From a virus: a stretch of DNA of 31,328 nt. The number at the start of each line of letters is the position of its first letter. Position 1 is the first letter of the stretch. The stretch covers positions 1 to 31,328 of IMG/VR virus record IMGVR_UViG_3300021365_001806; one strand, written 5' to 3'. Made by a program: the position numbers and the translations under genes. A model generated the notes under the pieces. That model saw only the letters and a program-made list of their open reading frames with translations. It was not told the DNA's origin and made no database searches. Below are positions 1-31,239 of this stretch, piece by piece.

Positions 1-1
1 G

Positions 2-436
2 ATAAAAGTTGACGGTTCAACTGGTAAATCTGGCGTTGACGTGTACGAGACCGCGGCTTCTATGGACATCTCTGACTCACTAAACATCGGTGTTGCATAC
101 ACAGATGACAAAGTGAACTCAGTTGAGTACATGGGTGCGGGTATCACATTCGACCTTTCTGATGCTACAACAATCGGTTACAACCACACAATCAAAGAAG
201 TGGAGTCTACTGCTGTAGAAACCACTGCTAATGAAGTAGTTGCTTCACACCAGATCGGTGGGACAACTTTCTCAGTTGGTTATGGTGAGATCGAGGATGG
301 TAACAAATACACTACAGTTGGCGCTGAGAAGAAATTCGGCGAGAACTTTAGCATGTATGGTGCTTATCAGATGACGGATGTGCCAACAGGTACAGACACA
401 AACGACATGGCGGCTGGAATCAAGTTTACATTCTAG
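2..436 (+). CDS. Outer-membrane porin, C-terminal part (5' end outside window)
   Basis: The reading frame is open from base 2, so the start lies upstream and only about 144 residues are visible. They show the pattern of a Gram-negative trimeric porin or similar beta-barrel. Strands of alternating polar and hydrophobic residues are separated by Gly/Asn/Asp-rich turns, and the last strand ends in Phe (AAGIKFTF), the C-terminal aromatic signature read by the Bam assembly machinery. Such proteins form passive diffusion channels in the outer membrane. A hairpin follows the stop, which suggests a separate transcription unit from the genes downstream. A porin is unexpected next to T4-like phage genes, although phage-borne porins are known (for example Lc of lambdoid phage PA-2). 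It could also be host DNA or an assembly join. The barrel-porin call is fairly sure; phage ownership is not. Confidence 0.7.
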   Translation: MKVDGSTGKSGVDVYETAASMDISDSLNIGVAYTDDKVNSVEYMGAGITFDLSDATTIGYNHTIKEVESTAVETTANEVVASHQIGGTTFSVGYGEIEDGNKYTTVGAEKKFGENFSMYGAYQMTDVPTGTDTNDMAAGIKFTF

Positions 437-490
437 TTTGCTTACACTGTGGAGTCGGTCAGCTCAAGGGCAGGCCGGCTTTACGCTTTT

Positions 491-510
491 TAACGCTCCG
501 CGTTATTTCT
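491..510 (+). terminator. Putative hairpin terminator after porin
   Basis: TAACGC, a TCC loop and GCGTTA form a six-base-pair stem at 491-505, followed by TTTCT. It lies 55 bases after the porin stop and points the right way to end that transcript. The T-tract is weak. The surrounding 437-564 spacer holds no gene but repeats TTAACGCTC at about 490 and 532. Confidence 0.4.
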
Positions 511-564: not shown

Positions 565-1467
565 ATGCGAGTAGCAGTAATAGAAGACACAGCCAACCAT
601 GAGCAGTACAGAGACGTTTTGCACTCGTTTGCAAAAGGATGCAATGGTAATATTACCAATAGTGGTAATACCAATGATTATGACTGTGCTGTAATATTTG
701 GTAGTTACAAAGATGATAGAGGTAGGTCAGCACACCAAGGCAAGGGCAAGGTAATCCAAAGTGGTATCCCTTACGTGCAAATAGAAACACAATTAATTGG
801 TAGACCCATAGACACTGCGTTTCACAATGAATTCAGGGTCGGGGTAAATGGGTTCCTTTGGGATGATGCAAGATGGGGATTCGAACACATAGAGGGAGAC
901 AGGTCAAAAAAAGTATTTGAACGTAATGGTTATGATCCTGATGTACCCTGGAAACAGGACGGTGACTACATCCTAATTTGTATGCAGAAAGTAGGCGATG
1001 CAAGTCTTAGGGGACAAGATGTATTCGCATGGACAGAGCACACAGTCGATCAGATCAGGAATCACACGGACAGGAAAATTATTATTAGGCCACATCCGCT
1101 GTACAGGAAGTCCAGTCTTCATAGCAAACTCCGAAACAAAGTATTACGGGTAGCGGACGTACACTGGCAAGAGGCAGATGTCAGGAAGTCCGAGTTTGTT
1201 CCTATAGCAGAACAACTGAAGAAGGCCTGGTGCACAGTAACTTACAGTTCGGGCACGGGCATTGATGCAGTAATAAATGGAATACCTAACGTAGCATGTG
1301 ATTCAGGAAGCATGGTGTATGAAGTAAGCAGTAAAGAGATAAGTGAAGTAGAATATCCTTTTACAGGAGATAAATCTAAATGGGCAAACAAGATAGCACA
1401 CTGTCAATGGAGCATTGATGAATTTGAATCAGGGGAGTGTTGGGCACACGTGAGTAAAAGTATATGA
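565..1467 (+). CDS. KpsS/KpsC-like (capsule synthesis type) glycosyltransferase, paralog 1
   Basis: This 300-residue protein has the hallmarks of the capsule polysaccharide biosynthesis (Capsule_synth) fold, whose members transfer sugars such as Kdo during capsule assembly. It has an R-x-H-P motif at about 175-178 (RPHP) and, about 50 residues later, the acceptor/donor-site signature YSSGTGIDAVINGIP at about 227-241. It aligns over its whole length with the gene at 17576-18445: both carry PWKQxGD, then an IRxHTxR segment, then R-x-HP. It is one of five such paralogs in the window. It overlaps the following SGNH gene by four bases (ATGA), so the two are translationally coupled. No clear Shine-Dalgarno precedes the ATG. 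The family call is firm for fold; the sugar and acceptor are unknown. Confidence 0.7.
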   Translation: MRVAVIEDTANHEQYRDVLHSFAKGCNGNITNSGNTNDYDCAVIFGSYKDDRGRSAHQGKGKVIQSGIPYVQIETQLIGRPIDTAFHNEFRVGVNGFLWDDARWGFEHIEGDRSKKVFERNGYDPDVPWKQDGDYILICMQKVGDASLRGQDVFAWTEHTVDQIRNHTDRKIIIRPHPLYRKSSLHSKLRNKVLRVADVHWQEADVRKSEFVPIAEQLKKAWCTVTYSSGTGIDAVINGIPNVACDSGSMVYEVSSKEISEVEYPFTGDKSKWANKIAHCQWSIDEFESGECWAHVSKSI

Positions 1468-2279
1468 GGTATCATCTAAGTAACGGCTGTAGTTTCAGCA
1501 CAAGGAAAAAGTTTAATAGTTGTCATCAACAGTTAGGTAGACTGTTGGATATAGACGAACCTACCATCAGCATGGCAAAGGGAGGTAGGGGCAATGACAG
1601 GATACTCAACACCACAATGCACTGGTTCTTCAAGAATCCAGACAAGTTGAAAGACACGTTCGTAAGCATAGGGTGGACCACAGGATACAGGTGGGACTAC
1701 GTGAGCAACTACGTGACTCCAAAGGAAAAAGAAGGCGGCATAAAAGGTGAACTGTTGAAGTTTGACTACCAATGGAGCACCTGGCAACTTTGGCAACACG
1801 ATTTCTTCATGCGTGACAAGGACATGGATCTCGAACTATCAAGTGCAGTAAAACTGTACACCAACATACTGTCCTTACAGTACTTCCTGAAGTATCACAA
1901 CATACCGTATGTGTTCTATCATGCACTCACGAACGATCTGCCCGAAACAGAGGTGAACGGAAAACAAAGACCTGATTTAAAATTGCTTAAAGATCAAATA
2001 GACAGAAAGCACTTTTATAATTTCGAGACCAGCGAGTTTGTGAAAGAAAATATACAAATGCAAAAGGATAACAGATCATCCGCACAACACAAAGTAATTG
2101 TGCCCAACAAAGATTATGTGCAGAGTCATTTTGAATTCTGTGCAAAGAACGGTTGGACAAAATCTGCAAACGACGGACACCCTAGTGAACGAGGACATCA
2201 TGCATGGGCAGACGAATTACATAAATTTATACAACAACACAACTTGCTTGATAGGCCCAGTTCCTATTCAACGGCTTAA
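1464..2279 (+). CDS. SGNH/GDSL-family hydrolase-like protein, paralog 1
   Basis: The N-terminus carries NGCSFS, the block I nucleophile-Ser motif of SGNH hydrolases. Block II follows in KGGRGND at about 39-45, a GW-type block near residue 74, and a C-terminal DGHPS that supplies the Asp-x-His of block V. SGNH enzymes are esterases, or acyltransferase partners, acting on small esters including O-acetyl groups of glycans. The gene at 24733-25395 has the same order of motifs (NGCSF, GGRGN, DPHPS) and is a clear paralog. Both sit next to a KpsS-like gene, so a role in glycan O-acyl chemistry is a reasonable inference. The last residues run 53 bases into the convergent methyltransferase gene and extend beyond the paralog's end, which suggests a shifted stop codon at a recombination junction. 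Confidence 0.65.
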   Translation: MRYHLSNGCSFSTRKKFNSCHQQLGRLLDIDEPTISMAKGGRGNDRILNTTMHWFFKNPDKLKDTFVSIGWTTGYRWDYVSNYVTPKEKEGGIKGELLKFDYQWSTWQLWQHDFFMRDKDMDLELSSAVKLYTNILSLQYFLKYHNIPYVFYHALTNDLPETEVNGKQRPDLKLLKDQIDRKHFYNFETSEFVKENIQMQKDNRSSAQHKVIVPNKDYVQSHFEFCAKNGWTKSANDGHPSERGHHAWADELHKFIQQHNLLDRPSSYSTA

Positions 2280-2916
2280 CTTTTCTCTTACATTCGTCCA
2301 ACCACTCGATCAGTGCCAGGAACTCGTGATCCTGCCATTTGCTCATCTTGCCGGACAGTCGAAAGTTACAGAACTCGTCGAACGTGATCACCGTTCCTGC
2401 TACGATCTGATCATTCAATGCTGTTAAGACTTCTTTGGTGGATGAATAGATATCTGCATCCATGTGCAAGAAAGCGATTGGTCCTTTGTTGTTCTGCTTC
2501 CATTTGGGCAGTGTATCTTTGAACCACCCCTTGTGTAGTTTTATGTGCTCCGGCACTACAGGAGGATCGCAACTCATGTCAGCAACCTTACCCGTTCCGT
2601 TATCCCAGTCTTCTGGAAGTCCTTGCCAAGAATCAAAGGCATGAATCACCTGTTGTGGATATTCTTCGATTAGCCATTTGAGACTTCTGCCTTCTCTGAC
2701 ACCAAACTCGCACCAGTGTCCGTTAACGGATATTTTTTGTGTAGATTCGATTAGTTGTTTGTGTATGCTTTCGAGATAATTTGCTTTGGTTATCCCGCCA
2801 ACGTATATGGGATCTAGAGTTATCCATTGGCTTAATAAATTCTTACCCTTGCTTATCTTTGATAAAAGTGATTGTAGTTGTGATTTGTCTTTTACTGTAT
2901 TGATTGCTTTAGCCAT
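2227..2916 (-). CDS. TylF/macrocin O-methyltransferase-like SAM methyltransferase
   Basis: The 229-residue protein resembles TylF/NovP-type class I methyltransferases, which methylate hydroxyls of sugars using S-adenosylmethionine. The SAM-binding loop is at about 70-78 (EFGVREGRS), followed by an acidic ribose-binding stretch (HAFDSWQGLPEDW). The family's metal-binding segment HMDADIYSSTKEVL is at about 151-164, with FDEFCNF at 179-185 after the next beta strand. It is the last gene of the replication-led minus-strand operon and overlaps the preceding FkbM-like gene by eight bases. Its 3' end overlaps the convergent SGNH gene by 53 bases. Given the glycan genes in the window, a sugar O-methyltransferase is the most likely role; the substrate is unknown. 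Confidence 0.75.
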   Translation of the reverse strand: MAKAINTVKDKSQLQSLLSKISKGKNLLSQWITLDPIYVGGITKANYLESIHKQLIESTQKISVNGHWCEFGVREGRSLKWLIEEYPQQVIHAFDSWQGLPEDWDNGTGKVADMSCDPPVVPEHIKLHKGWFKDTLPKWKQNNKGPIAFLHMDADIYSSTKEVLTALNDQIVAGTVITFDEFCNFRLSGKMSKWQDHEFLALIEWLDECKRKVKPLNRNWAYQASCVVV

Positions 2917-3598
2917 TTATAAAAGTAAGTTCTACACAAGGATTGTTAGGAATATGTCCAGTGTTGGTCTCCGCTAACAATCTGTTGCAATAAACTTTGT
3001 ATCCGTTGTTCTTGAATCTTTCAATTATGGCATTCAGATTTTGAAATTGTGTGTCCTCGTCTCCCATGTACATTTCAAATTCTCCAACAACTTGTTTAAC
3101 ATTGAGATTGAGATCGAGTATTTCTTTACAAATCTCATACCATCTTCCTTCTATGTCAAACTTTATTAGATCTACACTGTTACCTAGTTGTTCTACGATA
3201 TCTTTGATGCTCACACAATTAACAGTGTATGAATGTACTAGATTTTCAGGATCAAAGTTTTCCAGACTGTAACATCTCTTGGTTGGATCGGTCGTGTAAA
3301 AAGTAAGTGATTTGTTTTCTGGATCGTAGGCCTTGTTGGCATGGATGATGTTGGCCATTCTACTATTTGCTTTGTCTATGGTTGTTTGACTAATCGGAGT
3401 AGGATCCCATGTGTGTATCTTTGTCTCCTTATTATGCTTCCTTATCTGTTCTTCCATTCGACACTCTTTGCTTATACCAAAACTCCATACGTTTCTTATA
3501 TTAGGCATAAGTGCATCGCTGATGGCATATTGGTGGCATCTGTGCCAGGTATTTGGGACCAACGGGAATGTTTTTTCAAACTCTCTACATCTTTGCAT
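2909..3598 (-). CDS. FkbM-like methyltransferase, paralog A
   Basis: The 229-residue product carries the FkbM-family core DLIKFDIEGRWYE at about 143-155, where SAM-dependent methyltransferases of this family have VDxxKxDVEG, followed by a hydrophobic strand and an acidic EFEMYMGD. I chose the ATG at 3598 although the frame stays open to 3727. It lies just after the stop of the polymerase gene, and the paralog at 28129-28824 begins with the same block (MQ...RCR..EK.FP). The two paralogs share NVWSFG/MFWNFG, TxDPTPxSxxT, NIIHxxKAYD and EILDLxL, so one is a copy of the other. The N-terminal 40 residues are not typical SAM-domain sequence. Likely target: a sugar hydroxyl or a related group, by inference from context. 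Confidence 0.65.
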   Translation of the reverse strand: MQRCREFEKTFPLVPNTWHRCHQYAISDALMPNIRNVWSFGISKECRMEEQIRKHNKETKIHTWDPTPISQTTIDKANSRMANIIHANKAYDPENKSLTFYTTDPTKRCYSLENFDPENLVHSYTVNCVSIKDIVEQLGNSVDLIKFDIEGRWYEICKEILDLNLNVKQVVGEFEMYMGDEDTQFQNLNAIIERFKNNGYKVYCNRLLAETNTGHIPNNPCVELTFING

Positions 3599-3605
3599 GA
3601 TTACG

Positions 3606-5297
3606 TTAGTTATTGATAAATTTTTCCAGTCGGAATCCTTTGGAGTCATAGCACTCCACGTACTCTGAATTATTGGAATACCTGACAGTCCCCTGTCCTC
3701 GCACCACATCGTAGTCGCTGTAGGCAAATGCTTTCTTTATAGTAACATCAATGTATTGTCCGTTACCCACACCCAGCGTAAGGAACGTCACGTACCTGCC
3801 CTTGTCTCCACGAAACACTCTGCCGTTTGCTATCATTCCTGCGAATTCTACCTTGTCTAGATATAGTTCTTTCACATACATGCCTGGCATGAAGTCCTCT
3901 TGACTCCACCATCCGTATTTTCTATATTGGAATTCTGGAGTGTCCCACTTGTCAGACTTGCTTGGTGTGATGACATCTATGCCGATTCTTTTGGCTTCTG
4001 TCCTGTATACCCAACGTTTGTAAGATCCTTGACAGTGCTTCAGACATGACTTCCAGAACTTCTCTGGATTGTGTGCTTTCTGGTATGCTAAGGCCCATAT
4101 CAATCTTCCCAGATTCACAGCGTGTGCCCTGCACAGACCAAAACCGGAAAGTGATTGTAGCATTGTGATTATCTCATCCTTGCGTGGATGGTCGCCCAAC
4201 TTGGTAATGAACTGCATTATCTTCTCTTCGTTCTTCTTGGCGAATGCACGTCTATACATGTCGGCTTCGTACTTGTCTATGCCTAGCACTTCTGATATCC
4301 TGTCTATGGCATCGTCTTCGTACACTATTGTGTCACTCATACGTTCCGTGCTCCAGTCATGGAACATGGATGCTTTCTTACGTCCAGACGTAGCGACCGG
4401 TCTTATCAGTGCAGTGCCGAACACACAGTCCTTGCTACTTTTTGGTTGTATGGCCCTGAACAGTCTCCTCATGGCCGGACTTTCTGCCTGTGTCACTCCC
4501 AACACGTCTCCGCGACACAAAAGGTCCGAGGTAGCGGCATCTTCCTGAGGATAGTCTGTCAGTTTCATTGTTGGATCTATTTCTATGAGTTGTGACAAAC
4601 CACGATTGGCTAAAATATCCACCTTCAGGTGTTCTAGGTCCTCCACTTCGTTCTTGTCTAGTAGTATTTGATTTTCCGCCGTGAACAGGCTTTTTGGTAG
4701 TTGTCTTTGAAACATTATTATTCCTCCGCAGTGTTTTGATATGCATCTCTTCTTGCCTTTCAATTTATTTTCAATTCGTTTGGCTTCTTTGACATCGATG
4801 CCTAGTGAATCGTATGTGAACCTGCGGGGTAGGTTACCCTTGACACCCAATCGTTTGGCCGCTTCACGCCTTGCTGATTTATCCTTATAGAGCACGTAAT
4901 TAGATATCCTAGCACTGCGTCCGGGCCACTTCTTGAATATCCTCTGCATGACTTCGTTCTGCTTGTGATGGGGGAAGTCTATGTCCACGTCAGGGAGGTC
5001 GTCCCTGTTAGGGTTGAGGAATCTTGCCACGGGTATGTCCCACTCCACTGGGTCCACATCTGTTATGCCCAGTAGGTAACAGACCAATGACGAACCAGCA
5101 CTACCACGTGTCATGTGTGGTATGTCTCGTGTCATTGCGATGATGTCACATATTTGTATGAAGTAGTCTACGAAACGTAGTTGAAGGATGATTTGAGTTT
5201 CCTCGGCTAGCCTGTGCGTGTATTCTTCTGTGCCTGGACAATGCCTAATGAATCTATCGTATAGCCTTGTTATGTCGTTTAGTTCTTTATTTTTCAT
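3606..5297 (-). CDS. C-family DNA polymerase (DnaE-like alpha subunit) lacking the PHP domain
   Basis: The protein (563 aa) matches the polymerase core of bacterial DNA polymerase III alpha. TRGSAGSSL at about 63-71, with CYLLGITDVDP just after, corresponds to the GRGSaaGSL region. LPDVDIDF at about 101-108 supplies two catalytic Asp (D103, D105), and LKVDIL near 227 the third. GFGLCRAHAVNLG corresponds to the helix-hairpin-helix and KSHAxxYA segments. A C-terminal beta-rich stretch from about 460 looks like an OB fold. Full-length DnaE has about 1,160 residues; the N-terminal PHP proofreading domain (about 280 aa) is absent because the ORF begins just before the GS-rich loop. It sits downstream of primase, helicase and nth in one operon, so it may be the replicase. 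T4-like phages normally use a B-family polymerase; none is seen here. Confidence 0.8.
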   Translation of the reverse strand: MKNKELNDITRLYDRFIRHCPGTEEYTHRLAEETQIILQLRFVDYFIQICDIIAMTRDIPHMTRGSAGSSLVCYLLGITDVDPVEWDIPVARFLNPNRDDLPDVDIDFPHHKQNEVMQRIFKKWPGRSARISNYVLYKDKSARREAAKRLGVKGNLPRRFTYDSLGIDVKEAKRIENKLKGKKRCISKHCGGIIMFQRQLPKSLFTAENQILLDKNEVEDLEHLKVDILANRGLSQLIEIDPTMKLTDYPQEDAATSDLLCRGDVLGVTQAESPAMRRLFRAIQPKSSKDCVFGTALIRPVATSGRKKASMFHDWSTERMSDTIVYEDDAIDRISEVLGIDKYEADMYRRAFAKKNEEKIMQFITKLGDHPRKDEIITMLQSLSGFGLCRAHAVNLGRLIWALAYQKAHNPEKFWKSCLKHCQGSYKRWVYRTEAKRIGIDVITPSKSDKWDTPEFQYRKYGWWSQEDFMPGMYVKELYLDKVEFAGMIANGRVFRGDKGRYVTFLTLGVGNGQYIDVTIKKAFAYSDYDVVRGQGTVRYSNNSEYVECYDSKGFRLEKFINN

Positions 5298-5370: not shown

Positions 5371-6045
5371 TTATACTTTTTGGCGTAATTTGTTCTTTGG
5401 AACAGTGATATCTCTTTTGTCACAAGCGGCAGTGATCACACATTCATTGCACACAGGTGTTCTAGATTTACAAACGTATTTGGCGTGTGTTATCAACCAC
5501 ATATGTGCACCATACTTGTACTTGCCAGGCGTGGTGTTGTTCACAGTGATAGATGCCTTGCCCTCGTCCAGGCTGTCAGCCCACCCCAATCTCCACAACA
5601 TTCTGAAAACGTGTGTGTCCACTGCTATGTGTGGCTCGCCAAAAACGAATCGCATCACGATGTCTGAACTCTTACGTCCAACACCAGGCAGTGTCATTAA
5701 CTCTTTCTGAGTGTGTGGCACTCGTCCATTAAATTCTTCTAGCAACATCTTACTAGTGGCAAGTATATTTTTTGACTTGGCATTAAACAGTCCGGCAGGC
5801 CTGATTGCCTCGATCACTTCTTCTTGTGTAAGTTTGAGCATGTCTTCCGGAGTGTTGGCCAGTGAGAATAATTGTCTACATGCAATCGCTGTTCGTTTGT
5901 CTTGAGATTGTGCAGAAAGCATCACACCTATAAGACTGGTGTACGCTTTTGAATATATTTTAGCCTTTGGTTTTTTATTAGCGTAGTTGGGATAAAGAGA
6001 ACTTAATTTCTCGTATATGTAATCAATGTCATTACTGTTCTTCAT
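5371..6045 (-). CDS. nth: Endonuclease III-like DNA glycosylase/AP lyase
   Basis: The product (224 aa; E. coli Nth has 211) has the full active-site layout. The helix-hairpin-helix LPGVGRKSSDIV at about 119-130 holds the catalytic Lys125, VDTHV supplies Asp143, and LSAQSQD near 43-49 matches the LSAQ element. A C-terminal Cys-x6-Cys-x2-Cys-x5-Cys cluster (192, 199, 202, 208) binds the 4Fe-4S centre. Nth removes oxidised pyrimidines and cleaves the abasic site. Its start overlaps the end of the helicase gene by 14 bases, placing it in the replication operon, so it probably repairs phage DNA during replication. All expected catalytic and iron-sulphur residues are present. Confidence 0.9.
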   Translation of the reverse strand: MKNSNDIDYIYEKLSSLYPNYANKKPKAKIYSKAYTSLIGVMLSAQSQDKRTAIACRQLFSLANTPEDMLKLTQEEVIEAIRPAGLFNAKSKNILATSKMLLEEFNGRVPHTQKELMTLPGVGRKSSDIVMRFVFGEPHIAVDTHVFRMLWRLGWADSLDEGKASITVNNTTPGKYKYGAHMWLITHAKYVCKSRTPVCNECVITAACDKRDITVPKNKLRQKV

Positions 6046-7510
6046 CTGAGTGCAGTTCGTTTAGAAGTTGTCTCAGTTTGCCACCTTCCACGGTAGCCTT
6101 GACTTTGCCAATAGTGTCGCCTTTTGTTGGATCTGGTACATCAGGTCTCGCATCTTTTGGTGCACCACTACTTGAGGATACTTTGGATGTCTGTTTCAGA
6201 GAATCGTATATTGTGCTTCTCTGTTTGTCAAACTGTTTGTATTCTGGGTCATCGGCCAAGTCTCTTATTCTCAAACTGTCTACATCAAACTCAAGATCTA
6301 CTTTTTGTCCAACGCCAGAACTGGATCTAGTCTTCATGAACTGTATTTGATATCTGCCACGCTCTTTCATTGCTCTCGATGTGAATATACCAATCACATT
6401 GTCTGCTGTCTGTATCTTAGACAGTCCACCTGATATATGAGAGTGATCAAACTCTATTTCTTCAACTGATGCCCTGTTTAACTGTGATGCAGTTGCCAAT
6501 ACACATTGTTTTTCAACGACCAAGTTTCTCAGTTCTTCAGACACATATTTGTCCTTGATGAACAAGTCTGCAGGACTTATCCTTTTGCTCTTAGGCATCA
6601 TGAGATCCAAGTAGTCGATCAGTATACAGTCTATCTGCTTCTTATTCTTCAATTCTAGTTCTTTCAAGTATGTCCTCACATCCAACACATTACTACCACT
6701 TGGCAAGTATTTGATCTGTAAATTACCTGATTTCTTGGCCAGCATCTTGACTTTCATCTCGACATTATCAATTTCAGGGAATACTTTCTTAGTTGGAATA
6801 TTTGTCATCATTGCATCCAGTCTCATGGCTGTAAGTTGTTCACTTAATTCAAAAGATATGTAGCATACGTTCAGTCCGGCCTGTGCCCAGTTAACTGCAA
6901 GATTCTGCAAGAACAAACTCTTACCTGCACCCGACCCACCCGCAAAGATGTTTAGTTCTCCTCGGTTGAAGCCACCAAACAGTTTCTTGTCCAAGTTCTG
7001 CCATCCAGTGCTGATCTGTCCATTGTTATCCTTAAGTGCCTCTAGTCTTCCCTTTGGATCTTCGAAGTAGTCTGTACCAAGGTCTCTTGTAAGGCCAACT
7101 TGCACGGCCTCCTTGACCATGTCCTCAACAGGACCATAGTCACCTCTTTCTAATAGATCGGCCGATGATAGTATTGCTTGTTCAAGTGCTTTATGTCTAC
7201 AAAATGTTTCAAACTCATCTAGTAACCAGTTGAAGTGACTTGGATCTAAATCCTTCGCTGTCTTTAATTTTATATCGTGTGATGCATTGACTATGTCAAC
7301 TTCAGGCATGACCTTGTACTCGTCCATGTAGTCCTTGACAAACTTGGCAAGTGGTTGCAGTTTACGATCAAACGAGTTAGGGTTGAATATGTTCTGTGCC
7401 CTAGCAAATGATTCAGCGTCGGCCAACAACATCTCTATATACAATTTCTGTACATCAAAAGAATAGTTCTTAGCCTGGTGTTGTGGTTCGTTGTTATTGT
7501 AATCAGCCAT
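6032..7510 (-). CDS. 41: Replicative DNA helicase, T4 gp41-like (DnaB family)
   Basis: The 492-residue protein is a RecA-fold hexameric helicase of the DnaB/gp41 type, which moves 5'-3' on the lagging strand and partners primase. Walker A GGSGAGKS is at about 191-198, after the family stretch GWQNLDKKLFGGFNRGELN. Walker B appears as CILIDYLDLM. The ASQLNR sensor and a C-terminal arginine region (QFMKTRSSSGVG) follow. The N-terminal 150 residues are the helical primase-interaction part. It lies downstream of primase, separated only by an SGNH gene. A perfect -10 hexamer sits six bases before the ATG and no Shine-Dalgarno is seen, so a leaderless secondary transcript is possible. Confidence 0.9.
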   Translation of the reverse strand: MADYNNNEPQHQAKNYSFDVQKLYIEMLLADAESFARAQNIFNPNSFDRKLQPLAKFVKDYMDEYKVMPEVDIVNASHDIKLKTAKDLDPSHFNWLLDEFETFCRHKALEQAILSSADLLERGDYGPVEDMVKEAVQVGLTRDLGTDYFEDPKGRLEALKDNNGQISTGWQNLDKKLFGGFNRGELNIFAGGSGAGKSLFLQNLAVNWAQAGLNVCYISFELSEQLTAMRLDAMMTNIPTKKVFPEIDNVEMKVKMLAKKSGNLQIKYLPSGSNVLDVRTYLKELELKNKKQIDCILIDYLDLMMPKSKRISPADLFIKDKYVSEELRNLVVEKQCVLATASQLNRASVEEIEFDHSHISGGLSKIQTADNVIGIFTSRAMKERGRYQIQFMKTRSSSGVGQKVDLEFDVDSLRIRDLADDPEYKQFDKQRSTIYDSLKQTSKVSSSSGAPKDARPDVPDPTKGDTIGKVKATVEGGKLRQLLNELHSDEEQ

Positions 7511-7545: not shown

Positions 7546-8237
7546 TCTAAAAATAAATTACCAAATAGTTTATGATAATCTACACCTAGGTGATCACCGT
7601 CGTTTCCTTTTTTTGCTTTGATCTTTTTGGCATAATCGGTAAAACCATATTTGCCGTCGACTAAAAAAATATTTTCCCAATTAACATTATTATAAAGACT
7701 ATCTCTGTATTTTCTTAAAGTGCCATTTAATTTATTTTTCTGCCTTTTGGTCACCATGGTGAAGTAATATTTGATATTATTACTCTCACAGAAGTATTGA
7801 CAAAATAGAATATTCTTAAGGAAAATTATTTCAAGGTAATCATCATCAAAATTTTTTCCTACAAACTCTTTGAAATTTGTTTCAAATTTTTTAGCAAGTT
7901 GCTTTGCTATCCAGTTTTCATTACCATTATCTGCTACCGATTGTGCAAAATTATGACTTGCTACAAAGTTATAACCATTTTTTGTAATGTGTAATCTTTC
8001 AGGATAGGTGAACATTATTAGGACAACATTTTCCTTTGACGTTTGTCTATGCAGTTCCAAACTTATGGTATCATTTGAACATCCGGGCCGGGAAAAATTT
8101 TTAATGTTATTTCCGTCAAACACGTGGTATGGCCACGAAAGTAAACTGTGTTGTTCCCACGGTTTCTCGTGTCCGCAATCAGGCAAGCCGTCGCCGTAGG
8201 TGTGGGAATCTCCAAAAACATTGATGAGCTTATCCAT
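7518..8237 (-). CDS. SGNH/GDSL-family hydrolase-like protein inserted in replication operon
   Basis: The 239-residue protein starts with INVFGDSHTYGDG, a near-canonical GDSxTxG block I with the nucleophilic Ser near residue 11. A block II Gly is in SRPGCSND, and a C-terminal GDGDHLG provides the Asp-x-x-His-like catalytic pair. The family hydrolyses esters or transfers acyl groups. It is the third SGNH protein of the window and the most distant from the other two. It lies between primase and gp41 helicase with an eight-base overlap to the former, a place where other T4-like phages have replication genes only. Its DNA is visibly richer in A+T than its neighbours, which suggests a separate, perhaps recent, arrival. 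The substrate is unknown. Confidence 0.6.
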   Translation of the reverse strand: MDKLINVFGDSHTYGDGLPDCGHEKPWEQHSLLSWPYHVFDGNNIKNFSRPGCSNDTISLELHRQTSKENVVLIMFTYPERLHITKNGYNFVASHNFAQSVADNGNENWIAKQLAKKFETNFKEFVGKNFDDDYLEIIFLKNILFCQYFCESNNIKYYFTMVTKRQKNKLNGTLRKYRDSLYNNVNWENIFLVDGKYGFTDYAKKIKAKKGNDGDHLGVDYHKLFGNLFLDWINKKNQL

Positions 8238-9243
8238 ACATCTTTCTCTTTAAATCTATCTTCAGTTTACTTGACTCTGTGGTTTTCAGTATTGATTGCA
8301 TAGTAAACAGCCTACCATATTTCAACACAGCATCCGCCACATCGCCAACAGTCTTGTCCCATTCTGGAAATGCAACACTCCAGCCAAATTCCGTTGCCTG
8401 GTCTACCAGTTTCTGCCCAGGGGCATCTCTGTCTGGTACTACAATTACCTTCCTGCCAAGTCCATCGATCAACTCTCTCTGCGTGTCATTTATCTCTGAT
8501 CCCAATATGCTCACACCAGAAACGGATATGGCATCAAATGGCCCTTCTGTGACTATCACAAACTTCCTTGTCCAGTCCTGTGCATCCATGTTGAACACAT
8601 ATCCAGGCCAAACATCTGTGTAATATTTTACGCCTTGCGATTCCTCAAACATCCTACCTGTGAAGCCGACAATCTCTCCCCGCCAATAGAATGGTATCAA
8701 CAATCTCTGATGCACGTCCCACACCTTGTCAGGTGAGTACATGAAGTCATACCAGTCGGCACCCATTCCCCTGCTTTCCAAATACTTCAATAGGCCGTCT
8801 ATCTTCTTCCATTGTGGTTCTGTGAGATCATTGCCCACGTACTTCTCCAACCACACATCTAATTTGTGCGTGTCCTTGGGTAGTGTCTTGTTCTTGAATG
8901 TCACAAATTTCTTCTTCTCATACTTAACATCGCCCTCTTCTTCACGCATGGCCTCTATGGCCAACTTACGTATGGTATCTTCTGGTATGCCTATGTAACT
9001 CATGAACTGCCGCATCTTGTAGGTCAGTTTACGTCCTATCACATAACTTGTTTTGAATCCACAGTTGAAACAGTGATAACTGACTGTGCCATCCGCACTG
9101 GTCATCAGTCCTCCACGTTTCTTCCTGTCCGCGGTCTCTCCGTTGTACACACAACAAGGTGCGTTGAAACTGATCCAGCCGCTTGGTGTTTTCTTTCTGT
9201 TCGCAGGAAGACTAGTCAGAATTGTATTCTGTATAAGATTCAT
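8230..9243 (-). CDS. 61: DNA primase, T4 gp61-like (zinc finger + TOPRIM)
   Basis: The 337-residue protein has an N-terminal zinc-binding domain with Cys30/Cys31 and the pair Cys58-x2-Cys61, as in phage primases. A TOPRIM catalytic fold follows: VTEGPFDAIS at about 231-240 carries the conserved Glu, and VVPDRDAPG at 268-276 the acidic DxD metal ligands. It makes the RNA primers for lagging-strand synthesis and works with the gp41-like helicase two genes downstream. It is the first gene of the minus-strand replication operon. A sigma-70-like promoter lies immediately upstream, ending only ten bases from the ATG. Confidence 0.88.
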   Translation of the reverse strand: MNLIQNTILTSLPANRKKTPSGWISFNAPCCVYNGETADRKKRGGLMTSADGTVSYHCFNCGFKTSYVIGRKLTYKMRQFMSYIGIPEDTIRKLAIEAMREEEGDVKYEKKKFVTFKNKTLPKDTHKLDVWLEKYVGNDLTEPQWKKIDGLLKYLESRGMGADWYDFMYSPDKVWDVHQRLLIPFYWRGEIVGFTGRMFEESQGVKYYTDVWPGYVFNMDAQDWTRKFVIVTEGPFDAISVSGVSILGSEINDTQRELIDGLGRKVIVVPDRDAPGQKLVDQATEFGWSVAFPEWDKTVGDVADAVLKYGRLFTMQSILKTTESSKLKIDLKRKMYG

Positions 9244-10467: not shown

Positions 10468-10744
10468 TACAATTCAAAAAAAAAGACCGCTGTCTGCGAT
10501 CCCATCTAATTTTAATACCACGCTCACCCCAAATCTGTTGCCAGTAAGGCAGTTCATTCTTGATCCAGAGGGCATTCAGTTGACCCTCTTTGTTCAGTAT
10601 TTTCCACGTGTGCTTTGCTTTGGATTTCCAGTAGTCTGTGAGGAACTTGGACAACGACACGACCGAGAACGGTCCATCATTGGATAGGTCTACTACAGTG
10701 GGTTTGGATTTTTTAGTGAGTTTTTTATTTGTCTTGTTGTACAC
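10460..10744 (-). CDS. Small basic protein of unknown function, last gene of the uvsW operon
   Basis: This 94-residue protein starts at a GTG (10744-10742) that overlaps the end of the mini-DnaE gene by 20 bases; no ATG is available. It is rich in Lys at the N-terminus (NKKLTKKSK) and Trp/Arg at the C-terminus (WGERGIKIRWDRRQR). It resembles the short basic partner genes that end T4-like operons, but I cannot assign a family. Its last codons contain a hairpin with a nine-T run, an intrinsic terminator that would cut the mRNA before the stop codon. Confidence 0.6.
   Translation of the reverse strand: MYNKTNKKLTKKSKPTVVDLSNDGPFSVVSLSKFLTDYWKSKAKHTWKILNKEGQLNALWIKNELPYWQQIWGERGIKIRWDRRQRSFFLNCIK
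10476..10501 (-). terminator. Intrinsic terminator of the uvsW operon, inside the last gene
   Basis: On the minus strand GATCGC, loop AGACA and GCGGTC form a six-base-pair stem (10501-10485, one G-U pair), followed directly by nine T (10484-10476). It is a typical rho-independent terminator, but it lies 14 bases before the stop codon of the 10460-10744 gene. Confidence 0.65.
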
Positions 10745-11315
10745 TAAAGTTATATTTATCTTTCGTGAGCATATTCATTTGCACTACTATGGCCTGTGCA
10801 TATGCCACAGCGTGTGACTTCTTGAAGAAGTAACTGCCATCGGTTGGTCTAGACCATACCTCTTTCATTATGTCTGTCCAGTCCTTATACATCAGTCCTC
10901 TTTTAGCAGGACGTATGATTGCTAGTACAGCCGCAAGTTGTTCTATGGTACGTGGTTCTAATTTGGACACTATATTGAAATGGCCATTCAGGTGGAAAAG
11001 GTTTTCCACTATCTTTGGATCTTTCAACATGTCCCAATCAGGTTCCTGTATCATCAGTTCTACTAGTTCTTGTTCTGATTTAACATCTTTGTATATGTTT
11101 ACATTTAGACAATCTATTTTAAAGTATCCTCTGTCCTCTGCATTCTTGTAATCCAGTGAAGCATGTCCTGTCACAGGATGTTCGGGAACAGCGTGGAAGT
11201 AGACTCCTGTTTTGTGTTTCTCGCTTTTGCCATCTTTGATCATTGAAGCAGGTGTGTGCTTGAAAAGTTTTAGTGTGTTGTCTCTGTCAAAGAAGTCTAT
11301 GTCTACATCAGGCAT
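10725..11315 (-). CDS. Miniature DnaE-like protein (polymerase palm remnant)
   Basis: The 196-residue protein opens directly on MPDVDIDF, the catalytic-Asp motif of C-family polymerases (D3, D5). A GVYFHAVP block resembles the HAGG region, GYFKIDCLN holds a third Asp (D68, compare KVDIL in the large DnaE), AVLAIIRPAKRG matches the VALIRPG element, and KKSHAVAYA matches KSHAxxYA. All the DnaE landmarks are present in order but squeezed into about one sixth of the normal length, without PHP, fingers or OB domains. I recall a similar short protein in T4-like cyanophages near uvsW. Whether it polymerises DNA, regulates the large DnaE, or binds DNA is not known. It is linked to its neighbours by TAATG and 20-base overlaps. 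Confidence 0.65.
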   Translation of the reverse strand: MPDVDIDFFDRDNTLKLFKHTPASMIKDGKSEKHKTGVYFHAVPEHPVTGHASLDYKNAEDRGYFKIDCLNVNIYKDVKSEQELVELMIQEPDWDMLKDPKIVENLFHLNGHFNIVSKLEPRTIEQLAAVLAIIRPAKRGLMYKDWTDIMKEVWSRPTDGSYFFKKSHAVAYAQAIVVQMNMLTKDKYNFSVQQDK

Positions 11316-11712: not shown

Positions 11713-12388
11713 TCTTGGCCTCCCTTGCTGTGTCCTGTACCAGCATGTGATCAGCAGGATAGCTCTTCAACTTGCTTGGCCAGAAACTAGTATTAATAAA
11801 TCTTTCAATCATTTGTAATTGTTCGTCGTTAAGTGATTTTAACATCCTTTTGCCTGCGTTGCAACCTAACAACAGCCACGGACTTATCTTTCCCTGCTGT
11901 ATGTGTTGCACTGCCCTGTTGGTGTTGACCAAACGGAAGTAGTCACTCCATTGTGCGTTTTGTTCTGTTGCCCAGTCCATCATTGTTGCAATACTCCTCT
12001 GTAGTGCGGCCTCCACGGGTTCCGATTTTAGTGCTTCTATGAGATACGTTTCGTACAAGTCATCCCTGGACCAATGATCCAACTTAATTTTTGATCTCAA
12101 CACAAACTCTATGTACTTCTCTGGATACAGTGGATTAATATGCATGATGAAACGGCCAAACTTTACAAAGGCATTGTAGTACGAACTCTTAACGAAATCA
12201 TCGTACGTCTTTGTTTTCGAATTGTGCTGATGTATCTGATAGAATCTCTGGAACACCATGAATGCATTCACTACCCATTTTTCATCTCTTTGCAGATATC
12301 TCCTCTTGGGCTCGCACAGATGTACTTGTAGTGTACGTTCTTTAGCAAACTCCTTGCCACAGTATGTGCATTTATTTGTCGATGCCAT
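11705..12388 (-). CDS. Zinc-finger (C2HC-like) phage protein, DNA-metabolism operon
   Basis: The N-terminus holds one finger, CTYCGKEFAKERTLQVHLC (about 7-25): Cys7-x2-Cys10-x12-His23-x1-Cys25, spaced like a C2H2/C2HC finger with a short last gap. The remaining 200 residues are helical and rich in aromatic and basic residues (FVKFGRFIMHINPLYPEKYIEF). I recall homologs with the same finger in T4-like cyanophages. Its place among UvsW and polymerase-like genes suggests DNA binding or replication loading, but no biochemical role can be read. It overlaps the upstream gene by 17 bases. Confidence 0.65.
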   Translation of the reverse strand: MASTNKCTYCGKEFAKERTLQVHLCEPKRRYLQRDEKWVVNAFMVFQRFYQIHQHNSKTKTYDDFVKSSYYNAFVKFGRFIMHINPLYPEKYIEFVLRSKIKLDHWSRDDLYETYLIEALKSEPVEAALQRSIATMMDWATEQNAQWSDYFRLVNTNRAVQHIQQGKISPWLLLGCNAGKRMLKSLNDEQLQMIERFINTSFWPSKLKSYPADHMLVQDTAREAKIV

Positions 12389-12824
12389 GTGCTTCTATCA
12401 GTTCCTCTAGTTCCCTGTCTGTGATCACCTTGTCCAACGTCTCTAGATCTGATTCCTTCCACGTGGGGTATATTTGTTGCAGTTTTTTAAGACTCTTGTT
12501 TGGCACACGCTTCATGGGTTTCAGCCATGGATGGAACTGCTGTGTCTCCGCCCCACACATAGCAGTCAGTATCCATAACAGTTTCTTGTGTTTACCCAAT
12601 GTAAAGCAGTGCTTGTTCACACACTCGTTGACCATTTCTATGTAATGTTCCACGTAGAAAGGATCCTTAGATGACACACTGGAAACGTATCTCATCAGCA
12701 TATAAGGTGAATACAAGGATTTCTCCTTCTCGTCTATCCTGTCAAAATAATCTTTGTTCCTGAAGTCAACGGCTTTTAATCCGTTCCTTAAATCAAAGAA
12801 TTTTCTATTTTTTTCTACTGGCAT
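12372..12824 (-). CDS. Possible gp62-like clamp-loader small subunit
   Basis: The 150-residue protein has the arrangement seen in phage clamp-loader A subunits (T4 gp62): a central SPYMLMRYVS stretch, resembling the FxxNRxLS element, and further helices containing a KKLLWILTAM segment. A basic KPMKRVPNKSLKKL region and an acidic tail follow. In T4 gp62 bridges the gp44 ATPase and loads the sliding clamp. No gp44 or gp45 gene is in this window, and the match is by pattern only, so the call is tentative. It overlaps both neighbours (20 and 17 bases) within the uvsW operon. Confidence 0.4.
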   Translation of the reverse strand: MPVEKNRKFFDLRNGLKAVDFRNKDYFDRIDEKEKSLYSPYMLMRYVSSVSSKDPFYVEHYIEMVNECVNKHCFTLGKHKKLLWILTAMCGAETQQFHPWLKPMKRVPNKSLKKLQQIYPTWKESDLETLDKVITDRELEELIEAHGIDK

Positions 12825-13038
12825 ATTTTAGTGCGAACATTGTGCATTCTTTTGCTGTTACAAATGTTAATTTTATCTTATTGTGTTTGTGTTGTAAACC
12901 TGAAAATTGGAATTTGTGTTTTTTCATAAAGTCAAAGAAACTATACATCCAGTCCTCATCCATCCACACAGCGATCTTGTTGCTGGTTATCATGATGGGT
13001 GCGTCTATTGTGATTGACTTCCTACCAGACGGAGCCAT
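12805..13038 (-). CDS. Small conserved phage protein, unknown function
   Basis: I chose the ATG at 13038 (MAPSGRKSITI). The frame is open to 13086, but that stretch lies inside the upstream gene; the chosen start overlaps it by only 17 bases. The 77-residue product has beta strands (ITIDAPIMITSNKIAVWM) followed by FFDFMKKHKFQFSG and KLTFVTAKECTMFALKYA. The pattern suggests a small alpha/beta fold. No family recognised. Confidence 0.55.
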   Translation of the reverse strand: MAPSGRKSITIDAPIMITSNKIAVWMDEDWMYSFFDFMKKHKFQFSGLQHKHNKIKLTFVTAKECTMFALKYASRKK

Positions 13039-13525
13039 AGTCCACCTGTTCGCATTGCCTCGAGATGTCCTTGACGAAGTAAGCACACATGGGTTTTGGA
13101 CCGTTGTTTAGCGGAACGGCCAGCATCTGTCCTGTTTTGATTTTCGGGAAGTACCATTTTACTTCCGTGTAAATGTCTACCACATCTATAGGATAGAAAT
13201 CTGGCTTTGGACTTGATAGAGGATTGAAAGTGAATGCGTCAAACCCTCGGTCATTTAGACTGGTGATTGGCAACACGTGCATCTCGGATTGTCCTGCTTC
13301 GCCTATAAGCATTTTCCAATCCAACGGCATCTTTATCTTGTGAGGACCAATTTCCAACACCGCCGCCGGTGCATTGAAGCTCTCGAGGAATATCAACGGT
13401 ATGTAGAAGAAATCAGGATTGGCCGGATCGGAATTGTCCAGTACAGCAAACCTTAAATTCTCATCTACCCATTCTGGTATTTTCTCTAACTTGTATGTTC
13501 TGTTATCCAGTGTAAGGATTTTCAT
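13022..13525 (-). CDS. Conserved phage protein next to uvsW, unknown function
   Basis: This 167-residue protein shows a mostly beta composition, with Trp/Tyr-rich segments EWVDENLRFAVLDNSDP, FFYIPLIFLESFNAP, MPLDWKMLIGEAG and PITSLNDRGFDAFTFNP. I recall the same gene immediately downstream of uvsW in many cyanophages, so it is a marine T4-like core gene, but its role has not been established to my knowledge. It overlaps the 3' end of uvsW by 23 bases and the next gene by 17. Confidence 0.65.
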   Translation of the reverse strand: MKILTLDNRTYKLEKIPEWVDENLRFAVLDNSDPANPDFFYIPLIFLESFNAPAAVLEIGPHKIKMPLDWKMLIGEAGQSEMHVLPITSLNDRGFDAFTFNPLSSPKPDFYPIDVVDIYTEVKWYFPKIKTGQMLAVPLNNGPKPMCAYFVKDISRQCEQVDYGSVW

Positions 13526-19369: not shown

Positions 19370-21085
19370 TTATTTAATTTGATATTTTTCCTTCCAGTTT
19401 TTTACTTGCCATTGGGGTAATAGTCCCTTGCCGGCCTTCTGTGATCTTTTCAATTGTGCCAATCTTTCTTTACCTATGTTTTTATCAAATGCATCGTTAA
19501 GTTTTGTGTCAACGCCGTCCATCAACCAATAGCCAATGGGTGTAGTCCATCCTGTTTTTACCTTATATAATAGATAATCTGGTAATTTTTTTTTGTATGT
19601 TTCTTTCACTAAAACCTTTGCTTGATTTCCTTTGAATTTGTGAGCTGACTTGATGTTCATACAATACTGCATAAATTCTTTTGAGGCAAAAGGAAATCGT
19701 CCTTCCATGCCGTATGCCATGCCATATGCATCATTACGTAAGAGAAATTGTTCAGGAACTTGTGTGACACAATCGAGGGCCATGTAAGATGCCGTTGGAT
19801 CCTTTGGGTTCCACAGTTGATCACTGTAACATTTTTCTAATTCATCTATCAAAATTTCGTCATCTAGTGGTTCGTCCGTGATTGGAAAACTACCTTTCTT
19901 AACTCGTCCCATCCATAGGCCCAACAACTGTCTCCAAGATCTTGGTTTGTCTTCGCTGTGATATAAGTTGGAATATTTTGGATAGCCTCCAAACAGTTCG
20001 TCTCCCATGTCCCCTGCCATTGTTACCACTATGCCGTTGTCTGCCAGCACTCGATTGGTGTAGCAGTTCATTGGGTTGCTTGGACTGTAGTTTGGTTGTT
20101 CCATGTAGTATATGCTGTCATCCCAAGCGGATAGATATTCTGTGGGCCCTACAACCACGTCATGATGATTGAATTTTTGTTCTACTGCAAATCTCTTGGC
20201 CACTTTTGAGTCACTGTTGTAGTCTTCGTCTGCTTTGACCTCTGGCACAAATCTATTTGTAAATGTGTGTACTGTGTCTTGTATTTGATTCAGTTCATAA
20301 GCAACGATAGAGGAATCTATCCCTCCACTCAAGAACACACCAATCTTTCTTTTTCCTATTGCACACTGATTTACTGTCTTAGAAAACATTTCTTGTAACT
20401 CGTTTTTTGAATAATCCTGATCTGCGTTTGGCCGTATGTAAATCCTTTTTACGTAATCAAGTGTTTTACTTTTGATATCGTATACTATTGTTTCTCCAGG
20501 CAACACTTTTTTGATGTTTGTGTACAGGGTGTTCCTTAATGGATTGGTTCCTGCTTTGGTCAACATACTACATGCTAGATTGTCCAGCATCCGAGCATCA
20601 GGAACAACATCTAGCATTCCTTTGATTTCTGATGCAAACACGAGTCCCCGGTCAATCTTTGCGTAGTACAATGGTTTAATGCCCACGTGATCTCTGCTGA
20701 GGGTGATTGTCTGATTTTTTACATCGTGGTATGCAAAGCCATGCATGGAGTCAATCTCATCAAGAAAATCTAAGCCGTAACTGTCCAGCCCCCAGGCCAA
20801 CAATTCTGTGTCACACCCTGTCGTGTTTTTAAAATTGTTGTACTTCTCTATTAATGAATTGTAGTTGAAAATTTCACCATTGTACACAAGGCGATTGCCC
20901 TTTGGTGTGAGCCATGGTTGTTGTGAATTGTTTGGGTCGGCCATTATGCTTAGAAGGTTGTGGCCCAAGGTCACGTCATCGGATGTCCATATGTTGGATC
21001 CGTCGGGACCTCTGTGTTTACATACTTCTAGATAATCTTCTATGAACTTGGGATCGTTGTCCGTGATGCCGTATATTCCGCACAT
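19370..21085 (-). CDS. asnB: Glutamine-dependent asparagine synthetase-like amidotransferase
   Basis: The mature product starts MCGIYGITD, so the catalytic Cys2 of a class II glutamine amidotransferase is exposed after Met removal; I used the ATG at 21085, although the frame is open to 21151. The glutaminase domain (about 1-200) has KHRGPDG, VYNGEIFNYNSL and GCDTELL. The synthetase domain holds the ATP-binding loop FLSGGIDSS at about 251-259 and a DMGDELFGGY-type segment further on. The length (571 aa) fits bacterial AsnB. It either makes asparagine or amidates another carboxylate, as related enzymes do in surface-sugar clusters such as WbpS. Placement in a glycan operon favours the second, without proof. 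Its start overlaps the stop of the preceding gene by one base (TAATG). Confidence 0.85.
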   Translation of the reverse strand: MCGIYGITDNDPKFIEDYLEVCKHRGPDGSNIWTSDDVTLGHNLLSIMADPNNSQQPWLTPKGNRLVYNGEIFNYNSLIEKYNNFKNTTGCDTELLAWGLDSYGLDFLDEIDSMHGFAYHDVKNQTITLSRDHVGIKPLYYAKIDRGLVFASEIKGMLDVVPDARMLDNLACSMLTKAGTNPLRNTLYTNIKKVLPGETIVYDIKSKTLDYVKRIYIRPNADQDYSKNELQEMFSKTVNQCAIGKRKIGVFLSGGIDSSIVAYELNQIQDTVHTFTNRFVPEVKADEDYNSDSKVAKRFAVEQKFNHHDVVVGPTEYLSAWDDSIYYMEQPNYSPSNPMNCYTNRVLADNGIVVTMAGDMGDELFGGYPKYSNLYHSEDKPRSWRQLLGLWMGRVKKGSFPITDEPLDDEILIDELEKCYSDQLWNPKDPTASYMALDCVTQVPEQFLLRNDAYGMAYGMEGRFPFASKEFMQYCMNIKSAHKFKGNQAKVLVKETYKKKLPDYLLYKVKTGWTTPIGYWLMDGVDTKLNDAFDKNIGKERLAQLKRSQKAGKGLLPQWQVKNWKEKYQIK

Positions 21086-22068
21086 TACAGACCCAGTTTT
21101 GATTTGAACCTTTTGTAAACTGTGCCGTCTCTTATTTCTCGTATGCTCCACAGTTTATATCCTAGGTCGTATAGCCACTGTGTCCTGTCTGGCATCTTTG
21201 GTGTTTCTATATCGTTGAGATCCTTGTTACACACGTCCCAACACAGAGCTAGGTCTGATGTGCAGAAAGTTGGTATGCCTCTTATACAACTGTCTACACT
21301 GGCCGTGGAGTTGTGTGTGACAACTGCATGTGCATTTGTTATCGCTTCTTGGAAATGGAATCTGTAGAATTTCTTTTCATCGCCCGCAAAGTTTTGCTGT
21401 GTGAATTGCAGTTCCACATCTTCGGGGAACTCATCTTTACGTGCAACAATAGAGGCCACATGATTAGGATGTGGGCGGACTATGAATTTCCTGTCCGTGG
21501 CAGGCCTCAGTGTATCGTAGACTCCTTTGAACCATTCTATAGGATCAAGTTCGTTCATGCTCCAGTTGTCTTTGGGTTGCAGTACAAATATTATGGGATC
21601 GTGTTGATCAGATTTTCTCCATGGTTCGTATTTCACTTTGAATTTTTTGACCATCATGTCCCAACGATCACTGGGACTGTTGTCTGAAAGGAAGTTGCCA
21701 TCGTTCATGGGTGTGTATAAGGATACCCTGAAATGATGATCTGGTGATGTTGATACATTGCCAAAACTAGATAGCAGTCCTCCATCAAAGGTTATCAATG
21801 GTATTTTCTTGTCTCTGCAATTATTTGCGAGCTCTCTACGTCTGCCTTTTGTGTGATGCATCTGCCGGTCGCCGCCATAACCAAACATGGCCGCCATGGG
21901 TGCTGTTGGCATCATCTCTCCTTCCACAGTTGGTCCTGATCTATTCTCATGTACAATCACTGCTTCGTCGCCCGCCGCTTCTATGCCTTCTTTAAGATGG
22001 TAGAGCAATTCGTAACTGTTGCCACGTTTACGATCTTTTACTGTTCTTCTAAATATTTCAACCTTCAT
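21085..22068 (-). CDS. KpsS/KpsC-like glycosyltransferase, paralog 3
   Basis: The 327-residue protein, the longest of the five, keeps RPHP at about 198-201 and THNSTASVDSCIRGIP at about 251-266, closest to the STxxxEAxxxGxP pattern of classical capsule enzymes. An N-terminal Rossmann-like part (EIFRRTVKDRKRGN) is followed by a YEPWRKSD segment comparable to PWKQ in the other copies. It overlaps the next paralog upstream by 11 bases. This tandem pair of paralogs (3 and 4) suggests local duplication followed by divergence. The sugar specificity is not readable. Confidence 0.7.
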   Translation of the reverse strand: MKVEIFRRTVKDRKRGNSYELLYHLKEGIEAAGDEAVIVHENRSGPTVEGEMMPTAPMAAMFGYGGDRQMHHTKGRRRELANNCRDKKIPLITFDGGLLSSFGNVSTSPDHHFRVSLYTPMNDGNFLSDNSPSDRWDMMVKKFKVKYEPWRKSDQHDPIIFVLQPKDNWSMNELDPIEWFKGVYDTLRPATDRKFIVRPHPNHVASIVARKDEFPEDVELQFTQQNFAGDEKKFYRFHFQEAITNAHAVVTHNSTASVDSCIRGIPTFCTSDLALCWDVCNKDLNDIETPKMPDRTQWLYDLGYKLWSIREIRDGTVYKRFKSKLGL

Positions 22069-29903: not shown

Positions 29904-30139
29904 TCATCAGCATCGCCGTAGCCCATGTCTTCAGATTCTTCTTCCTCAAACACAGTATTAACGGCTTCCTCTAGTTTTGGATCAAGCTCTGCAGATCCTC
30001 TGAGTACATCATGCTCCACCCCTATGTCTTCTAGGCTTTTAATAAAGTCAATAGCAAAGTCTAGTTTCTGTCTTTCAGGAACATAATGTATAATGGAGTT
30101 CCACAATCGTTCAATATCGGCGTGATCAAAGTCTATCAT
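29900..30139 (-). CDS. Small acidic phage protein between uvsX and uvsY
   Basis: The 79-residue protein begins MIDFDHADIERLWNSI, then PERQKLDFAIDFIKSLEDIG and an acidic, Glu/Asp-rich tail (VFEEEESEDMGYGDADE). I recall an equivalent gene in cyanophages between uvsX and its partner genes, without function. The acidic tail might mimic DNA or contact UvsX or SSB; that is inference. It is coupled to uvsX by TAATG and to uvsY by ATGA. Confidence 0.65.
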   Translation of the reverse strand: MIDFDHADIERLWNSIIHYVPERQKLDFAIDFIKSLEDIGVEHDVLRGSAELDPKLEEAVNTVFEEEESEDMGYGDADE

Positions 30140-31239
30140 TATTTTTCTGTTTTAGTTTTTGTTTTAGGTGTTACATCAACTTCGATAGGAGCATCAGTGT
30201 CTTCTTTGTCAGCGAAGTCTGTTTCTTCTTCAAAGTCTGCCATTAGCATATCTAATTTATCACCTATCCATTGTTTTCTGAAGTCAATATGTTCTTTACC
30301 TGCTTTATCAATGTATTTCAGTCTGTTTCCTTGTTGCACTAGTACGCCTTTCTTCTCAAATAGGTCAACTAGTCCACTGTATGGGTTCATTCCTGTTTCA
30401 TATGGAATCTTAACTTGTACTGATTCAAATGGTTTAGAGTATCTTGTTTTCATAACTTTACAAGCGGCTCTTATACCTCTTACGTCTGAGACTTTGTTAC
30501 CGTCTAGATCCTCTTTTAATTTAAGTTTCTTCATTGCAATAACAATCGAACTTGCATAGATAAATCCTTGTCCACCCGATATCTTGTCATCAGGATCAAA
30601 CATGTCCTGCGATGCGTATGTATGGTTGGTTGCTATAAGTCCTACGTTCCACGAACCAAACATGTTAACACAGTTTCTTACAAGAGCTGTTAATGCCTTG
30701 GGTTTTCTACCCAGGTCACCTTTCATATCTCCTGCTTCAAATTGATTAACGTCAGTTGGTGTAAGCATCATGCCTAAACTGTCTATAACAAATAGCACTT
30801 TAGGTGCACCTTCTTTGTCATCTGCATGTTGCTCTTTGTAACCCTTCATGAACTCTGAAATAGTTTTTGCTACGTCATCAATCATTGATACACTTAATTT
30901 TAAAAGTTTATCTTCTGATGTGTCTACTTTCAATGCCTGTAACCATTTTTCGTCTAGTGCGTTCTCTGTGTCAATTAAGATTACAAAGATGCCTTGGTCT
31001 TGTGCATTCTTGATTATGTTACCTGACGCTATGTAACTCTTGCCTGCTCCTGATTCTCCTGCAAGTACAGTCACCTTACCTAGTGGAATTCCTTTGTTGA
31101 AATCTCCAGTCATCAAATAATTTAATGCGTAATTTCCTGTGCTGATCCAATCTGTGGGATCGCTAAATCCTATGCCTAACCCTTGTATAGATTTTGTAAT
31201 ACTTTTTCTAAACTTTGTTGCGTCAAATACTTTTGTCAT
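30139..31239 (-). CDS. uvsX: UvsX recombinase (RecA family)
   Basis: The 366-residue protein has Walker A GESGAGKS at about 61-68, Walker B VLFVIDSLGMM near 148-158, and the RecA-type DTENALDEKWL stretch. LIATNHTYASQDMFDPDDKISGGQG is the loop L2 region. UvsX makes the ATP-driven presynaptic filament in T4 recombination-dependent replication. An AAGGAT ribosome-binding site (31252-31247) lies seven bases from the ATG. It heads a four-gene operon with uvsY and the HAD gene. The length matches the T4 and cyanophage proteins. Confidence 0.92.
   Translation of the reverse strand: MTKVFDATKFRKSITKSIQGLGIGFSDPTDWISTGNYALNYLMTGDFNKGIPLGKVTVLAGESGAGKSYIASGNIIKNAQDQGIFVILIDTENALDEKWLQALKVDTSEDKLLKLSVSMIDDVAKTISEFMKGYKEQHADDKEGAPKVLFVIDSLGMMLTPTDVNQFEAGDMKGDLGRKPKALTALVRNCVNMFGSWNVGLIATNHTYASQDMFDPDDKISGGQGFIYASSIVIAMKKLKLKEDLDGNKVSDVRGIRAACKVMKTRYSKPFESVQVKIPYETGMNPYSGLVDLFEKKGVLVQQGNRLKYIDKAGKEHIDFRKQWIGDKLDMLMADFEEETDFADKEDTDAPIEVDVTPKTKTKTEK

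Follow-up and report, generated by a model that had tools for sequence, protein, structure and literature searches.

Discussion of phage metabolic genes has mostly centered on enzymes, components of photosystems, and transport components of the inner membrane or periplasm. General porins of the OmpC family (OmpD/NmpC/Lc type) are carried by lambdoid coliphages, and the Lc porin of phage PA-2 has been connected with the host losing its receptor porin. An annotated 'outer membrane porin' (AGE60376.1) is also encoded by Pelagibacter phage HTVC008M, which is available in culture. In oxygen-minimum-zone phages, a viral OmpL lies beside glnK-amtB and was attributed by its authors to Bacteroidetes (PMC8115048).

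Here, we analyzed the start of an entire IMG/VR virus record of 31,328 bases (hereafter the window), at which a phage gene for a general-diffusion porin is cut by the contig end at base 1. The gene belongs to the same family as the HTVC008M porin, with 40% identity over the whole mature protein, while the lambdoid coliphage porins, likewise phage-carried, share just 28-30% identity over part of the protein. As the HTVC008M member and the lambdoid porins were already annotated, the interest lies in the breadth of the family and in its phage-only clade.

Porin fragment and phage ownership

The truncated open frame at the window start (Table 1) ends in ...MAAGIKFTF*, i.e., with a C-terminal Phe, and corresponds to mature residues 136-279 of 279 (numbering of relative L001), or strands 8-16, nine of 16 strands. 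The signal peptide, strands 1-7, and the constriction loop belong upstream of base 1 and are known from relatives only. As sole query, the 144-residue fragment had no PDB match and a weak Pfam match only; being barely recognizable by itself, it is identified as a porin through its full-length relatives. It matches the C-terminal 144 residues of a 312-aa open reading frame (ORF) on contig L001 at 98% identity; this ORF passes the cut-off of Pfam Porin_1, and the first-pass annotation was right to claim a genuine porin C-terminus with final Phe. The upstream sequence to which that annotation had pointed was read in the relatives, where it completes a full porin with signal peptide that has phage genes on its flanks.

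Table 1 Features of the window around the porin gene and phage hallmark genes
Feature	Position	Strand	Basis
Porin C-terminal part, 144 residues	2..436	+	Open frame without start (5'-open); relatives
Terminator hairpin of porin transcript	449..484	+	Fold; conservation in relatives
T run after terminator hairpin (GC, then five T)	487..491	+	Sequence; conserved in relatives
Second short inverted repeat, AACGC-TCC-GCGTT	492..504	+	Conserved in relatives
First cargo gene after porin, no Pfam family	565..1467	+	Same junction in several other contigs
Cargo gene, DUF6071	1464..2279	+	
Cargo gene, TylF-like methyltransferase	2227..2916	-	
Cargo gene, FkbM-type methyltransferase	2909..3727	-	
DnaB-like replicative helicase (gp41 role), conserved anchor on far side of cargo	6032..7510	-	
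DNA primase	8230..9243	-	
UvsW-type DNA helicase, phage hallmark	13503..14969	-	
UvsX-like recombinase, T4-like hallmark	30139..31239	-	

The porin gene is owned by a T4-like phage. Many contigs share a recurring order of tRNA cluster, radical-SAM genes, small gene, porin, variable cargo, replicative helicase, and primase; one low-GC lineage has the porin immediately after the helicase, with the relative orientation of the two genes inverted. The junction at 410-570 is closely repeated in contigs L001, L003, L004, L006, and L024 from other metagenomes, which makes an assembly join very unlikely. Seven long relatives of up to 328 kb carry gp23, the T4 major capsid gene, and the porin on one contig; window-type contigs are too short to include gp23.

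Several other genes were observed on these contigs. A run of radical-SAM/SPASM proteins is encoded beside the porin on L001 (4932-9155, minus strand), and the T4-like, porin-bearing contigs include L182 (242 kb) and L183 (328 kb), the former also with genes that by eye resemble Hsp20, DnaK, L7/L12, and ClpS. In the window, a glutamine-hydrolysing type asparagine synthase (19370-21151) lies amid glycan and methyltransferase cargo. A piece of bacterial-type DNA polymerase III alpha with NTPase and finger domains only (3606-5297) is optional in relatives, while a second short ORF (10725-11315), DnaE-like by eye and with no Pfam match, is nearly universal in them; together the two look like a DnaE system that T4-like phages carry in divided or incomplete form.

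Protein family, predicted fold, and selection

Full-length relatives clearly exceeded the Pfam cut-offs for general porins: the L001 ORF in Porin_1 (E 4.7e-11, 43.2 bits, cut-off 23.7), the HTVC008M porin in Porin_4 (52.2 bits, cut-off 27), and likewise the porins of L183 and L203. They have a lysine-rich start, a hydrophobic core, and an A-x-A site, by eye a signal peptide, as well as a final F. Structure was modeled with AlphaFold2 on the L001 relative; a shallower alignment gave a pLDDT of 37, and an alignment of 31 diverse phage sequences raised it to 87 (pTM 0.79). The predicted barrel has 16 strands, one of them read as two segments, a third loop of 32 residues with two short helices that would form the constriction loop, and outer loops of about 4-9 residues each. 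The best PDB matches to this model in Foldseek were OmpU (E 1e-14), OmpK36, OmpF, and malate-bound Omp32, and the porin of R. blastica was also matched; a profile search of the sequences again retrieved OmpK36 (E 7e-7).

In an alignment with E. coli OmpF, we followed K16, R42, R82, D113, E117, and R132, residues of the constriction in that protein. R132 is retained in all 53 phage porins, and 52 of these have K or R at the R82 position; D113 and E117 are retained within the window clade, and K16 and R42 are lost in the phage porins. The window gene would encode a general-diffusion porin of the OmpC/OmpF/OmpU fold as modeled on L001, which may form trimers with an open pore in the outer membrane.

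Simple counting, with saturated pairs dropped, gave a dN/dS of 0.14 overall for the mature porin and 0.08 for the constriction loop. The outer loops (0.157) change hardly faster than the rest (0.136). By these sequence comparisons, the porin is under purifying selection, which is strongest in the constriction loop, with no sign of fast outer-loop change.

Transcription signals

Just past the porin stop codon, the stem of the terminator hairpin has a folding energy of about -22 to -24 kcal/mol. A strong stem occupies the same place in window-type relatives (mean -22.3 kcal/mol, compared with -9.7 kcal/mol for stretches drawn at random from these loci, n = 41) and persists where the surrounding sequence is unrecognizable (L010, L012, L017). 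A simple terminator scanner missed the hairpin in the window, but the earlier reading that a hairpin ends the porin transcript before the glycan genes is borne out by this conservation.

Upstream of window-type porins, 26 of 28 distinct but related regions contain a loose sigma-70-like promoter, a count that weighs less because the pattern is permissive; L066 and L072 have a strong TTGACA with TATAAT or TACAAT. The late-type motif NATAAATA, with an expected count of 0.017 per upstream region, likewise occurs in 26 of these 28 mutually related regions, mostly overlapping the sigma-70-like promoter. Just after the promoter lies a hairpin with both-side changes in four of nine pairs and several A-U to G-U changes among 11 related sequences, which were picked since the hairpin had been found in them; this covariation suggests that the hairpin functions in the RNA. 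In the HTVC008M type, all 30 upstream regions have the late-type motif, together with a 5' hairpin, and no hairpin was found 3' of the porin in that type. The window-type porin adjoins replication genes, unlike the structural-gene setting of the HTVC008M type.

Distribution and origin

Porin relatives were found in at least 185 viral contigs by a single profile-pattern scan. Each phage record has one porin copy. Of the phage genomes that have been deposited, only HTVC008M gave a match spanning most of the porin. The first-pass annotation had called the gene an unusual auxiliary phage gene; its assignment to a phage stands, whereas so many relatives and the annotated phage porins speak against its being an oddity. 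Occurrence is patchy: of 12 helicase loci that have 10 kb of downstream flank, only 4 carry the porin within it. The gene has features of marine-phage auxiliary metabolic genes in that it is accessory and patchy, has cellular relatives, and lies in a variable cargo region.

Among sampled bacteria, the phage porin profile matched 1 of 385 Alphaproteobacteria and 36 of 369 Gammaproteobacteria, with 7e-20 as the best value, and a peptide-pattern search for bacterial relatives found none. A tree built from 39 phage and 22 bacterial porins places every phage protein on one side of a 98/98 branch. This topology would fit a single old acquisition, but the bacterial sample is small and may lack the true donor. 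Judged from these sequences, the phage porins apparently form a large, phage-only family in marine T4-like phages. Contig L147 encodes a complete ClpP (2005-2607) on the same contig as the porin, at most 63% identical to bacterial ClpP; as host marker, its matches were scattered over many phyla and gave no host call.

Transporter genes on related contigs

DctP-family (TRAP) binding proteins are encoded on 6 of 38 porin contigs, all of window type, at 1.4-11 kb from the porin (1.4 kb in G1135, 4.1 kb in G004); the DctP copies of G008 and G009 contain two in-frame stops. A TctA permease is present on three porin-bearing viral contigs (G007, G029, G036). Neither DctP nor TctA was found in the HTVC008M-type contigs searched. 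On L203 (5926-10802), four genes run in one direction, for the porin, two putatively secreted proteins (each about 360 aa), and a TctA permease; a TctC family search gave no match, so that the two intervening proteins stay unassigned. L148 encodes an FTR1-like iron permease and TctA (1348-1932 and 3841-5250) about 7-11 kb from its porin (12192-13127). The link between porin and transporter genes is an association on the same contigs only.

Proposed function and alternatives

We propose that the phage transcribes its porin during infection as a unit of its own, with its own promoter, a 5'-terminal stem-loop, and a strong terminator. The host Sec system would export the protein and the host BAM machinery would insert it in the outer membrane, where it would form a narrow pore of 16 strands whose outer loops are very short. 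During the shutdown of host porin synthesis, the pore would keep or raise the permeability of the outer membrane to small solutes, perhaps organic anions, and may feed the host as well as phage-carried uptake proteins of the TRAP and TTT types. Taken as a whole, this explanation, a phage-owned general-diffusion porin with its own transcription unit that serves solute uptake during infection, has in our judgment slightly better than even chances. Of the two roles suggested in the first-pass annotation, changed nutrient uptake and replacement of the host receptor porin, the sequence evidence favors the former, because the constriction loop is conserved and transporter genes occur on related contigs. 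Solute uptake is the best-supported function, and the phage porin probably sustains the nutrient supply of the infected cell. Counting against uptake are the lack of DctP and TctA in the searched HTVC008M-type contigs, the in-frame stops in the G008 and G009 DctP copies, the patchy presence of the porin, and the late-type promoter of the HTVC008M type, which would leave little time for feeding.

Replacement of the receptor is an unlikely alternative, in which a phage pore with trimmed loops would displace the host receptor porin and block adsorption of sibling or competing phages. The porins of lambdoid coliphages offer an analogy for such superinfection exclusion and the short predicted outer loops would suit it, but the porin of R. 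blastica, with 289 residues, is scarcely longer, so that short loops are not special. Moreover, the outer loops evolve at nearly the same rate as the remaining protein, the late expression of the HTVC008M type would be poorly timed for exclusion, and no mechanism to remove the host porin was seen.

The pore might instead replace host porins lost in shutdown, so that outer-membrane integrity or the osmotic balance is held until the cell lyses, without particular nutrient gain. For such envelope maintenance, the own promoter, 5' hairpin, and terminator suggest steady expression, and the single copy per phage record agrees with it, but the transporter genes on related contigs and the patchy occurrence are left unexplained, and we regard this role as quite improbable. 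A late protein made with the structural proteins, for release or carried in the particle, would match the position of the HTVC008M gene among baseplate genes and the late-promoter-like motif of all 30 upstream regions of that type; given the sigma-70-like promoters of the window type, its location next to replication genes, and its retained constriction loop and signal peptide, a virion-associated or lysis-related barrel is very unlikely. That assembly fused host and phage DNA here, or that the porin is a fragment recently taken from a host, as its position at the contig end could suggest, has next to no probability and was rejected, since independent contigs show the same junction, long relatives carry gp23 on the same contig, and all sampled phage porins lie on one side of the 98/98 branch.

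Returning to solute uptake, an old phage-owned porin family, set apart from sampled cellular porins, might combine with binding proteins of the periplasm and permeases of the inner membrane, both encoded by the phage, into a phage-specified uptake route across both membranes, a speculative extension that we consider conceivable but rather doubtful. If the porin family is truly widespread, marine phages would also set outer-membrane permeability, which could alter both the feeding of infected cells and phage adsorption to them.

Comparison with known systems

Vibrio OmpU, Klebsiella OmpK36, and E. coli OmpF have the predicted 16-strand fold, the constriction loop, and several constriction charges in common with the phage porins. 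Identity to them is about 20%, and the phage protein is smaller (279 vs about 320-345 mature residues) with shorter loops. The viral OmpL (PMC8115048) is, by its description rather than by sequence, a similar case of a viral porin adjoining nutrient-uptake genes.

The lambdoid coliphage porin genes lie near holin/endolysin and Q genes and are annotated as enterobacterial OmpC, OmpD, or NmpC. The window porin departs from this lysogenic-conversion type in its neighborhood, which consists of T4-like replication genes instead of lysis genes.

The HTVC008M porin and the window type share a signal peptide, the final Phe, the invariant residues, membership of one clade, and a T4-like phage as carrier. 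They differ in that the HTVC008M gene is surrounded by baseplate genes, has a late-type promoter, and lacks a terminator hairpin, whereas the window-type gene is found between tRNA/radical-SAM genes on one side and the replicative helicase on the other. These two promoter arrangements within one family make the question of timing testable, for which HTVC008M provides a cultured member.
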